A DNA stretch of 64,000 bases from Spirochaetales bacterium Spiro_05 (GTDB lineage Bacteria; Spirochaetota; Spirochaetia; Sphaerochaetales; Sphaerochaetaceae): NCBI GenBank assembly GCA_001603115.1, contig LVBG01000013.1:40207-104206 (forward strand), given 5' to 3'. The translations under genes and the position numbers were made by a program. The notes under the pieces were generated by a model. The model saw nothing but the letters and a program-made list of their open reading frames with translations, made no database searches and had not been told where the DNA came from. Positions 2,559-6,613 of the stretch are shown piece by piece. How positions within the stretch are numbered: the stretch's first letter is position 1; each line of letters begins with the position of its first letter.

Positions 2559-2587
2559 TTGCATATCCATGAATACTCGCTTATAGT
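2559..2587 (+). promoter_or_regulatory. Sigma70-type promoter of orphan ncRNA (TTGCAT-N17-TATAGT)
   Basis: TTGCAT at 2559-2564, 17-bp spacer, TATAGT at 2582-2587. Confidence 0.65.
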
Positions 2588-2593
2588 AAGACC

Positions 2594-2833
2594 CAGAAAG
2601 AGAAACTACTGCTGAAAGCAAATACATTTCTTCTTTTGACGATGTTTGAAATCACTGTATGTGTTTGGACTGCAAATCCGGATACCATATACAGACAAGG
2701 TAGCACTCCTTTGGCATCCAGGACTCTAAATCCTGCCAAGGAAGGAGTAACTGGTATCCAACTTGGACTGAAAATCCAATACGTGCCACTGCCACAAAGG
2801 GGGGAGAGACTGAAAATCTCTCCCTTTTCCTTT
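2594..2833 (+). ncRNA. Candidate structured ncRNA with four hairpins sharing the apical motif ACUNNAAAU
   Basis: Promoter upstream, U-tract terminator at the end, hairpins at 2657-2692, 2705-2748, 2754-2782 and 2802-2824 with loops CTGCAAA, CTCTAAA, CTGAAAA, CTGAAAA; no convincing protein on either strand. Confidence 0.65.
2802..2833 (+). terminator. Rho-independent terminator GGGAGAGA-CTGAAAA-TCTCTCCC-TTTTCCTTT
   Basis: 8-bp perfect stem, 7-nt loop, T-rich tail. Confidence 0.8.
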
Positions 2834-2835
2834 GC

Positions 2836-3630
2836 CTAGGCCAGTCCTCCCAGAATATCCACGCACGTCTGATGAAGCGCTTTGTTCGAGACAATGCCAA
2901 TGCGGTCGGAAATGAAGGGCGTGACCGCTTCTCCCTTGAAGGATGTCACCCTTCCTCCTGCTTCCTCAACCAACAGCATGCCAGCTGCCACATCCCAGGG
3001 CTTCACCCCAAAAGGAATATAAGCATCCTGCTGTCCGTCTGCCACCTGACAAAAACCCATAACCGAGCATCCGTAAGAACGCACCTGCCCTACGACATCC
3101 AACATGGCTTGGGCGTGGTGGCGGAAATTTTTGCGATAAGAGAGCGCCCCAAAATCGATATCCACCCGCGCTTGTTCCATCCTGCCTATGTTGGACACCT
3201 GCATGCGCTTTCCGTTGCGATAGGAGCCAGAGCCGCGTTCTGAGAGAAAGAGATCACCGGAGATTGGGAAGAGCACTCCCCCGGCTTGTGTCCTTCCCTC
3301 GGAAAGGAAGCCGATGCTGATACCAAACTCAGGGAAGAGACCTCGAAGAAAGTTCTGGGTCCCATCAATAGGATCAACCATCCAGCATCGCGAAGGTGGA
3401 GACCCTTTGAAGGTGTCCAGGCCCGACTCCTCTGCGATGAAGAGGTCGGAAGGGAAGACTTGGCCAAGATGTGTTATGATTTTTTGCTGGACAGCAATGT
3501 CCACCTCGGTCAGAAAATCGGTGGGGCTTGCCTTGGTGGAAACCGTTAGGTTTGCCCTGTCTGCAAACCGATCGGTCACATAGGCGGCCAGTTCTTTCAA
3601 TACTGCTTCGATGACAGAAATCTCATCCAT
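2836..3630 (-). CDS. Inositol monophosphatase family protein
   Basis: IAEESG, WMVDPIDGTQNFLRG and PWDVAAGMLLVEEAGG motifs. Confidence 0.9.
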   Translation of the reverse strand: MDEISVIEAVLKELAAYVTDRFADRANLTVSTKASPTDFLTEVDIAVQQKIITHLGQVFPSDLFIAEESGLDTFKGSPPSRCWMVDPIDGTQNFLRGLFPEFGISIGFLSEGRTQAGGVLFPISGDLFLSERGSGSYRNGKRMQVSNIGRMEQARVDIDFGALSYRKNFRHHAQAMLDVVGQVRSYGCSVMGFCQVADGQQDAYIPFGVKPWDVAAGMLLVEEAGGRVTSFKGEAVTPFISDRIGIVSNKALHQTCVDILGGLA

Positions 3631-3647: not shown

Positions 3648-4754
3648 TCAGACTCTCAAGCCCTTCTGGTCAAAGATATGGACCGTATCCAAATTGATGT
3701 GCATACGGATCATCTGCCCGTTCTCAAATGCAAGGGTTGGTTGCGTTACGACATAGAATTGCTCTTCATCGACCATGACACTGACCACCTGCTCAGCTCC
3801 GGTTGGCAAGACTGCCTTCACCACACCCTTGATGCAGGTCTGGTTCTGTTTCATCTCAGTCTCATCGTCCATAGCGTGGAGTGTCACGGTTTCACTTCTG
3901 AATCCTACTTTACAGATACGCTCACTGTTTGTATCCAGCTTGCGGAAGAGTGCAACGGAGGTGCGAAGATCTTCTTTCCATTTCGGCATCGCAGTTTTCG
4001 TCAGGCTGACCATATTCATGGGAGGGCTGCCGACAAAGGTGGCAACAAACTCGGTGGCAGGTTTGAGATAGATGGTCATGGGGTCGGCATACTGCTCGAG
4101 CTTTCCTTCGTTCATGACTGCCACGTGGGTTGCCAGGCTCATGGCTTCCAACTGGTCGTGGGTAACAAAGACAATGGTGCTTCCCAACCGCTCGTGCAGG
4201 GATTTGAGCTCCGAGCGCATCTCAAGGCGCAGGGCAGCATCGAGGTTTGAGAGAGGTTCGTCCAGTAACAGTATGTCAGGTTGTACTGCCAACATTCTTG
4301 CCAGGGCAACACGTTGTTGCTGCCCGCCACTGAGTTCGGCAGGATACCTCCTGCGGTAGGCTCCCATGCGAAGAAGGTCGAGCGACTCGGTGATGATCCT
4401 CCCTCGCTCTTCCTTGTTCACCTTCTTCATCTTCAGGCCGAACTCCACATTCTCCTGCACCGTCATATGAGGCCACAGTGCATAGCTTTGGAACACCAAG
4501 CCCAGCTTGCGATGTTCAGGCCGGACAAAAATGTTCTGCTTGGGGGCGTCAAAGATCTCCCCACCGATGGTGATAACCCCATCATTGGCCCGTTCCAAGC
4601 CGCTGATCATCCTCAGGGTAGTGGTCTTGCCACACCCTGAAGGACCAAGAAGGCAGACAAAGCTCCCCGGTTCGAAATTCAGAGACAGATCATCCACGGC
4701 AACCACATCACTGCCGTACTTCTTTACAATGTGCTCAAGCTTGATATCGATCAT
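3648..4754 (-). CDS. ABC transporter ATP-binding protein (iron/polyamine type)
   Basis: Walker A GPSGCGKTT, LSGGQQQRVALAR, LLLDEPLSNLD, C-terminal TOBE-like region. Confidence 0.92.
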   Translation of the reverse strand: MIDIKLEHIVKKYGSDVVAVDDLSLNFEPGSFVCLLGPSGCGKTTTLRMISGLERANDGVITIGGEIFDAPKQNIFVRPEHRKLGLVFQSYALWPHMTVQENVEFGLKMKKVNKEERGRIITESLDLLRMGAYRRRYPAELSGGQQQRVALARMLAVQPDILLLDEPLSNLDAALRLEMRSELKSLHERLGSTIVFVTHDQLEAMSLATHVAVMNEGKLEQYADPMTIYLKPATEFVATFVGSPPMNMVSLTKTAMPKWKEDLRTSVALFRKLDTNSERICKVGFRSETVTLHAMDDETEMKQNQTCIKGVVKAVLPTGAEQVVSVMVDEEQFYVVTQPTLAFENGQMIRMHINLDTVHIFDQKGLRV

Positions 4755-4783
4755 GATGGTTCCTCTTCAGTAGGGTTTGGTAT

Positions 4784-6613
4784 TCAGCCGCCAATGCCTT
4801 GGGCGAGGTTGGTCTTGGTCAGACGCTGGGAGAGTGCGGTGAGCAGGAAGGTGATGAAGGCTATGATGAGAATCACGCCATTGGACATCTGCATCAGGGC
4901 ATTGTCGGTGTAGCGGATGGACAGGGTGGTCAATACTTCCAGGCCGGGAACAGCGAGCATGATGACCAAGCTAAGCTCCTTCATGCCCTGGATGAAAGCC
5001 AGAAGCATCCCGCTGAACAGCGAGCGTTTCTGGATGGGAATGACAATCCTGAACATCCTCGTGAGCCAACCAGCTCCCAGAATCATGGCAGCCTCCTCAG
5101 GCTCGGCTCCCATCTGCGCCATCGAGCTGATGCTCGAGCGGGTGGTGAGCGGCAGATACATGACGCTCATCGCCAGGATCATCAGCAGCAGGGTTCCATA
5201 GAGGGCGGGAATGGGTCCCCTTCCTGTGGCAAAAAGCACCAGATAGGCAGCCCCAAAACCGATGCCTGGTACCAAATACGGCAAGAAGGAGAGATGGCGG
5301 AGATACTTGCTCAGCCGGTACTGCTGCAACCGTACTACTGCATACCCTACCAAGGTTCCCAAAGTCCCGCAGATAAGCGCGCCGATACCGGCCACCTTGA
5401 TGCTGGTCCAGGTCACCGACAGGAGCTGTGGATCGCGTAGGAGCCCCGGTACCGCTTCGCGGACCCTCGTCTCCTCTGCAAACCAGAACTGCAAGGTGAA
5501 GTTGTCTTTTACAAACCACCCCGGGGTGACCATGAAGGTAGAGAGGGCGAGAACGCCCAATGGCAGGACTATGACCACAAAGAGGAAGAGGCCTACCAAA
5601 AGGTTCATCGGAACCTGCAAAGGGCCCAAGGTAAAGGGGCGTGACATCTGGCCCTTCCCTCCCATCGTCACATACCGTTTGTACTCCCGAAGCACGTATA
5701 CATCAAGAGCAACAAGAAGTGCTCCGATGATGAGCATGGCCAAAGCAATGACGGCCATGACACCAGGCTCTCCCGACTGGTAGGTAAAGTAGAGTGAGGT
5801 GGAGAGCGTGTTGAAGCGTACCGGACGACCCAGGGTATAGGGAGTACCGAAGGTACCGACTGTCCGTGCGAAGGTCAGCAGGATGGTGGACATGATGGCC
5901 GGCTTCATGACCGGCAAGAGAATATGGATGGCTGTCTGGAGTTTGTTGGCCCCAAGAATCTGGGCCGACTCCTCCATCTGGCTGTCAATTCGTTGGAATG
6001 CATTGCCGAACATGAGGAATGCAAGGGGGAAATAGTGCATGGTCAGACAGATGATGATGGGCAGCGGCCCATAGGCGAGAAAATCAGGGATAGTGAAACC
6101 CATTACTTCAAGAATGCCAGGAGCACCTGCTTGTTTTCGGTTCTTGAAAAGCGTAATCCACGCTGCAGCATAGCTCCATGAGGGGAGCATGAAGGGGACG
6201 ACGGCCAAGGTGGCAAAGATCTTCTTGGCACGGATGTCCGTCCTGGTGATGATCCAAGCCAGCACATAGCCCACGATGGTGGTGCAAAAAGTGATGCAGG
6301 TGGCTATGAGCAGGGTGTTTGCCAGCGGGTCAAGAAAGAGGACGCTGGAAACTCTGGAGGTAAGTGCGCGCTTGAAATAGCTGAAGGTCAGCGACCCGGT
6401 CTCTTTCTGCAAATAGCCTGCGTCGATGGAGTGAACCTGCACCGATTCAATAACAAGCATGAATACCGGAATCGCTATCAGGTAGGTAAGGACAAATGCC
6501 AACACGATGCCAAGGACCATGGTGGGGTTGAAAGCACCCCGTCCTCGCAGTGGCAAGAGTCTAGGTGTTTTGCCGCCATCCTTGGCAGCAAAGAGTTCTT
6601 TGATGTGCCTCAT
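4784..6613 (-). CDS. Fused ABC transporter permease (FbpB/AfuB-like)
   Basis: Two permease halves with EAA-type loops; start set at MRHIKELFAAKDGG, downstream of an intercistronic hairpin. Confidence 0.85.
   Translation of the reverse strand: MRHIKELFAAKDGGKTPRLLPLRGRGAFNPTMVLGIVLAFVLTYLIAIPVFMLVIESVQVHSIDAGYLQKETGSLTFSYFKRALTSRVSSVLFLDPLANTLLIATCITFCTTIVGYVLAWIITRTDIRAKKIFATLAVVPFMLPSWSYAAAWITLFKNRKQAGAPGILEVMGFTIPDFLAYGPLPIIICLTMHYFPLAFLMFGNAFQRIDSQMEESAQILGANKLQTAIHILLPVMKPAIMSTILLTFARTVGTFGTPYTLGRPVRFNTLSTSLYFTYQSGEPGVMAVIALAMLIIGALLVALDVYVLREYKRYVTMGGKGQMSRPFTLGPLQVPMNLLVGLFLFVVIVLPLGVLALSTFMVTPGWFVKDNFTLQFWFAEETRVREAVPGLLRDPQLLSVTWTSIKVAGIGALICGTLGTLVGYAVVRLQQYRLSKYLRHLSFLPYLVPGIGFGAAYLVLFATGRGPIPALYGTLLLMILAMSVMYLPLTTRSSISSMAQMGAEPEEAAMILGAGWLTRMFRIVIPIQKRSLFSGMLLAFIQGMKELSLVIMLAVPGLEVLTTLSIRYTDNALMQMSNGVILIIAFITFLLTALSQRLTKTNLAQGIGG

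Follow-up and report, generated by a model that had tools for sequence, protein, structure and literature searches.

The window (the whole stretch of DNA analyzed, 64 kb in length) contains a compact predicted transcription unit between two minus-strand genes. The divergent neighbor, at positions 1649 to 2500, codes for a membrane protein without a family match, and behind it lies a cluster (56 to 1593) coding for an Se/S carrier, a YedF-like TusA protein, and a YedE putative selenium transporter; the convergent neighbor (2836 to 3630) is a member of the inositol monophosphatase family. On the plus strand between them, a promoter at 2559 to 2587 is read in the sequence as TTGCAT (2559 to 2564), a 17-nt spacer, and TATAGT (2582 to 2587), and the predicted RNA of about 240 nt extends from 2595, a start inferred from the promoter, to 2833. 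A conserved block runs to the terminator in the related genomes G002 and G008. The terminator (2797 to 2833) is a strong hairpin followed by the tail UUUUCCUUU and is itself conserved in both genomes, in keeping with the U-tailed terminator of an earlier note on this DNA; the T-run rule of a terminator scan of the window missed it. The same note called the promoter excellent, which is too strong: the boxes and spacing are present, but the -35 box matches the consensus at just three of six positions, and a consensus promoter scan of the window reported none for this unit. The weak promoter is nonetheless accepted because relatives carry an equivalent at the matching place, with the spacing and -10 box kept in a TTGNNN-N17-TATNNT arrangement: TTGCAT/TATAGT in G002, TTGAAC/TATAGT in G005 and G018, and TTGCGC or TTGCGT/TATCAT in G004 and G007. 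A separate array in G144 is preceded by TTGACC-N17-TATAGT.

The unit is real, and neither a coding sequence nor a known RNA family accounts for it. A 66-codon ATG frame (2642 to 2842) crosses the RNA, which qualifies the earlier statement that no credible open reading frame lies inside, but no conserved protein is encoded; a small protein is rejected because in G008 the ATG is missing and a stop interrupts the frame midway, and because the repeated motif described below falls in two different reading frames. A cis-acting leader or riboswitch is rejected because the downstream gene is convergent in the window, as noted earlier, and likewise in G008 and G144; action of the RNA in trans is plausible. 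A search of the window against Rfam 15 gives nothing at gathering score (the best match, at E = 0.6, is at chance level), and ARAGORN identifies no tRNA and no tmRNA gene in the window, in agreement with the previous by-eye judgment that the RNA does not match tmRNA, RNase P, or the single long rod of 6S RNA. BLAST searches of phages and plasmids return nothing. The multiple A(N)GGA loops of CsrB and RsmZ are absent, with GGA occurring in stems only and the four conserved loops instead reading CUNNAAA.

The fold of 2595 to 2833 has an energy of -68.2 kcal/mol, compared with -53.7 +/- 4.2 kcal/mol after dinucleotide shuffling (z = -3.5), and none of 200 shuffles reaches it. Three hairpins precede the terminator, as the earlier note described, and what it missed is the defining feature of the RNA, four copies of an anticodon arm of the i6A37 class. 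All four hairpins share one loop type, a 7-nt anticodon-like C-U-N-N-A-A-A, on a stem of five perfect pairs with A-U and G-C as the closing pairs. In tRNA numbering, the loops are C32, U33, variable 34 and 35, A36, A37, and A38, as in the anticodon arms of the tRNAs for UNN codons (Phe, Cys, Tyr, Trp, Ser, and Leu). The anticodons of these anticodon-stem-loop (ASL) mimics are, in order, GCA, CUA, GAA, and GAA. Arm 1 (2655 to 2694) has the loop CUGCAAA (2670 to 2676; GCA, Cys type) with a closing-pair probability of 0.92; arm 2 (2704 to 2745) has CUCUAAA (2724 to 2730; CUA, amber type) with a probability of 0.43, and competes with an alternative fold when the window sequence is folded alone; arm 3 (2752 to 2788) has CUGAAAA (2768 to 2774; GAA, Phe type) with a probability of 0.86; and the fourth loop, CUGAAAA (2810 to 2816; GAA), is that of the terminator. 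Folded to a consensus, the three closest RNAs have four arms with one ASL at each tip, and a helix pairing 2699 to 2702 with 2790 to 2793 closes a three-way junction of arms 2 and 3. Of the tRNA cloverleaf, only the anticodon arms are present. Hairpins with Y-U-N-N-A-A-A loops on five perfect pairs number five on both strands of the 64-kb window, four of them in this RNA, within 141 nt and on the sense strand; shuffled windows average 1.9 such hairpins in total, and none has three inside 200 nt.

The RNA has relatives across nine Sphaerochaetaceae genomes, seven of which belong to one genus (Sphaerochaeta) and two of which (G066 and G144) have independent arrays. BLASTN searches of related genomes, which are free of motif bias, find two homologues, in G002 (76% identity) and G008 (83%, partial). 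Among the 12 loops of the window, G002, and G008, C32, U33, and A36 to A38 are invariant and positions 34 and 35 vary (GC, CU, GA, AG, and GU); the two homologues also keep A31-U39 and nearly all G30-C40 pairs, and their terminator loops are CUAGAAA or CUGUAAA. Motif searches add arrays of eight ASLs in G066 and of four in G144, as well as forms with two in G005, G018, and G007; the loops of the G144 array carry GCA, GAA, GUA, and CCA (Cys, Phe, Tyr, and Trp types), and its terminator has seven T and the Trp-type loop CUCCAAA. A covariance model (R1) adds G004, with no further clear array across 141 genomes of the family and, under strict filters, no match beyond the family among 395 genomes sampled from the phylum. 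Weak R1 matches in G071, G036, G074, G140, and G117 are single hairpins or have poor pairs and are left uncounted. In the 5' part of the RNA in G018 and G005 (loci L183 and L184), the CCAAC loop of a hairpin is able to pair with a GTTGG immediately past the first ASL, a possible pseudoknot.

The stems covary as expected of RNA: in the R1 alignment 97.1% of stem cells are paired, and there are 46 two-sided changes, compared with 15.2 in shuffles, counts that are not independent of each other since neighboring rows share hairpins; slid controls of the test collapse. Across 32 hairpins from the nine genomes, C32 is present in 31 and U39 in 31. G144 relaxes A31-U39 and, once, C32, and displays equivalent loops on quite different stems (CATGG/CCGTG and GTCGG/TCGGC) at another locus. 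Decoding identity is not what the loops conserve, because positions 34 and 35 vary widely and include CUA, AGA, and AUA, anticodons that to our knowledge are not expected in ordinary tRNAs of these genomes. A36 to A38 belonged to the search patterns, and their invariance over the 32 hairpins is thus partly built in; unbiased support comes from the BLASTN homologues, the G144 and G066 loops outside the matched motif, the contrast with positions 34 and 35, and the specificity of the arrays.

As to specificity, among 397 fetched loci, many picked for motif repeats, three ASLs with different stems are present solely in Sphaerochaetaceae loci. A three-motif scan of 85,000 genomes yields 84 loci, including two from Sphaerochaetaceae (L062 from G008 and L081 from G066), and the others are rejected as tandem repeats, either without stems or with near-identical units. 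A compact-spacing pattern matches 38 genomes across the phylum, and none of the loci fetched from it is a new array in which three stems differ. A scan of IMG/VR has two matches, one of which was examined and is an operator-like repeat; among the matches listed by a looser IMG/VR scan, no array has three stems that differ. The examined match (L105, 10590 to 10720) lies on a viral contig, where its directional repeats, GTGATTNNAAATCAC-like and flanked by regulator-like genes, are probably repressor operators. Separately, a Bdellovibrionia metagenome-assembled genome (L047, approximately 4720 to 5060, minus strand) has irregular tandem repeats with several GACTGACTCGAAATCAGTC hairpins, in which the loop is also CTCGAAA; these look repeat-derived and are not clearly an RNA gene.

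The earlier description of a self-contained structured noncoding RNA, possibly lineage specific, is supported by its conservation, its covariation, its broken reading frame, its restriction to one family, and its absence from Rfam. Two findings that the note named as refuting, a significant match to an Rfam family and a lack of covariation in homologues, were looked for and did not arise. We consider it almost certain that this is a genuine structured RNA under selection for ASL mimicry.

The surrounding genes are conserved on one side only. Sphaerochaeta carriers with a readable context have the membrane-protein gene next to the RNA and, in the case of the window, G018, and G005, a YedE-type gene after it; the G008 contig begins inside the RNA, and the divergent side is unreadable there. 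On the other side, the window and G008 share the phosphatase gene, G002 has an HD-domain gene instead, and the phosphatase is not conserved beside the RNA in G002, G005, or G018. The conserved synteny is therefore with the divergent gene and not with the phosphatase. In 12 other genomes of the genus with the membrane-protein gene and some readable upstream DNA, there is no recognizable RNA. The adjoining selenium cluster named in the earlier note is real, but it is not a defining link because the G066 and G144 relatives lie elsewhere: the G144 array has a DUF3793 gene upstream and a convergent DUF1848 gene, and the eight-ASL array of G066 is at a contig end, about 300 nt from a tRNA-Phe gene with a matching ASL core. 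A direct role in selenium metabolism through 2-selenouridine at U34 is rejected, as position 34 is U in just 1 of the 32 loops. The DNA upstream of the RNA in G002 (L009, 5835 to 8164) contains a transposase-like insert with a 115-nt direct repeat at its two ends; the repeat copies are 89% alike over their full length and unusually long for a target duplication. The insert duplicates the upstream region, and in the downstream copy the promoter and RNA are intact.

The loops point to a tRNA-modifying enzyme. A36-A37-A38 is the positive determinant conserved among isopentenyltransferase substrates, in which the anticodon loop is read directly (PMC7200024). All four hairpins of the RNA have the 7-nt loop, A36-A37-A38, and paired anticodon stem of a MiaA substrate, and these are conserved in the homologues. 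Among the tRNAs recovered from G002 and G144, the NNAAA loop is present only in UNN readers. MiaA (tRNA A37 dimethylallyltransferase) is encoded in all 11 genomes checked and MiaB is above cut-off in 9 of the 11, the other two (G000 and G008) being incomplete assemblies. The best reading, for which we see the balance as even, is of an RNA that serves MiaA (or MiaA/MiaB) as substrate, sponge, or both. The stand-alone RNA would present several anticodon arms of the i6A37 class (Y32 U33 N34 N35 A36 A37 A38), with MiaA as the most likely partner and, through it, MiaB, which methylthiolates i6A37. It would bind MiaA at several sites, would probably be prenylated itself, and, when abundant, would compete with tRNAs for MiaA as CsrB does for CsrA, such that competition may tune i6A37/ms2i6A37 on the tRNAs reading UNN codons. 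A sponge would have to be abundant. The amount of MiaA matters in Escherichia coli, where MiaA is itself regulated by CsrA/CsrB and i6A37 influences the translation of rpoS and hfq (PMC12249760, PMC5485728).

We regard recognition of the RNA by MiaA as reasonably probable; that titration of MiaA is its main function is conceivable and somewhat doubtful. Counting against MiaA, the RNA is absent from most MiaA-bearing relatives, and in G005 (L199) miaA is frameshifted near its 3' third relative to G018, yet the RNA is kept; the frameshift is possibly a sequencing error or a real loss. Neither miaA nor miaB adjoins the arrays in the regions read. A further point against is that A31-U39, G30-C40, and C32 are conserved more strictly than MiaA is known to need. 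C32 and U39 are as constant as the MiaA determinant, as would suit a decoy for, or target of, some other binder of anticodon arms, be it a tRNA-cleaving toxin, to which the RNA would serve as antidote, or a different modification enzyme (e.g., TruA at U39, or TtcA or TrmJ at C32). This is unlikely: we know of no requirement for A36 to A38 in TruA, TtcA, TrmJ, or tRNA-cleaving toxins, the freedom of positions 34 and 35 disfavors a nuclease that reads one anticodon, and no toxin gene is recognized beside the arrays in the regions read.

An ordinary base-pairing small RNA or an unrelated RNA, in which the hairpins were duplicated from one ancestor and the anticodon look is inherited and nonfunctional, would account for the GACUNNAAAUC common to all loops, as local duplication would give, and small RNAs that bear terminators are common. 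However, positions 32, 33, and 36 to 38 stay while 34 and 35, the stems, and the linkers diverge, and the G144 loops are alike on quite different stems at another locus, making this decidedly unlikely. A DNA-level or cis-acting element (repeats of the iteron or attachment-site kind, or a sequence regulating the divergent membrane-protein gene) would fit both the divergent position of the RNA beside one conserved gene in Sphaerochaeta and the proximity of the G066 array to tRNA-Phe, but it is highly improbable, as every motif is on one strand between promoter and terminator, stem sequences change with pairing kept, most Sphaerochaeta genomes bearing the gene are without the RNA, and G144 and G066 have other neighbors. 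Isolated anticodon arms can bind 30S subunits and U33 and a purine at 37 are kept, but ASLs serving as decoding decoys in the ribosomal A site at UNN or stop codons are scarcely credible, given that the anticodons are patternless and several match no natural tRNA, that one loop sits in the terminator stem, and that there is no selection on positions 34 and 35.

Returning to MiaA, we tentatively propose, at somewhat less than even confidence, that these are a new class of noncoding RNAs, polyvalent in anticodon arms, which would sequester a tRNA-modifying enzyme or be modified by it; the whole i6A37/ms2i6A37 class would then be controlled by enzyme availability, or the enzyme's activity sensed through the RNA's own modification. 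tRNA modification is usually viewed as housekeeping, its level following enzyme expression and metabolism; if the proposal is true, an RNA would directly control a tRNA-modifying enzyme or, as a natural substrate that is not a tRNA, report the activity of that enzyme. The comparative signal (free 34 and 35, fixed 36 to 38) and the covariance model provide means of finding more. No tandem anticodon-arm RNA is described in Rfam or in the open literature, with subscription papers and preprints mostly outside this search. The parts have precedents and the whole does not; what is new is the RNA architecture, and the mechanism is a proposal.

Among known systems, CsrB and CsrC (and RsmY/Z) are stand-alone RNAs with many copies of one protein-binding hairpin and a terminator end (for CsrB, PMC12249760); the RNA here is likewise stand-alone, with repeated candidate protein sites and a terminator, and would share their sponge mechanism. 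They differ in having GGA loops for CsrA, whereas here the loops are anticodon-like CUNNAAA, the proposed partner is a tRNA-modifying enzyme, and there is no Rfam match. The tRNAs of the i6A37 class (Phe, Tyr, Cys, Trp, Ser, and Leu-UUR) share the 5-pair anticodon stem and Y-U-N-N-A-A-A loop, with inner bases often as in the genome's own tRNA-Phe (GGA CTGAAAA TCC), but the RNA has no acceptor stem, D arm, or T arm and several of its anticodons are unnatural. The E. coli thrS operator is an anticodon-arm mimic in a synthetase mRNA. Yeast HisRS mRNA likewise contains an anticodon-arm mimic (PMC6542539). In both, as proposed here, an RNA other than a tRNA binds a tRNA enzyme by copying an anticodon arm, but those mimics act in cis, in the enzyme's own mRNA and with one tRNA identity, whereas here a separate RNA with two to eight arms imitates a whole modification class.
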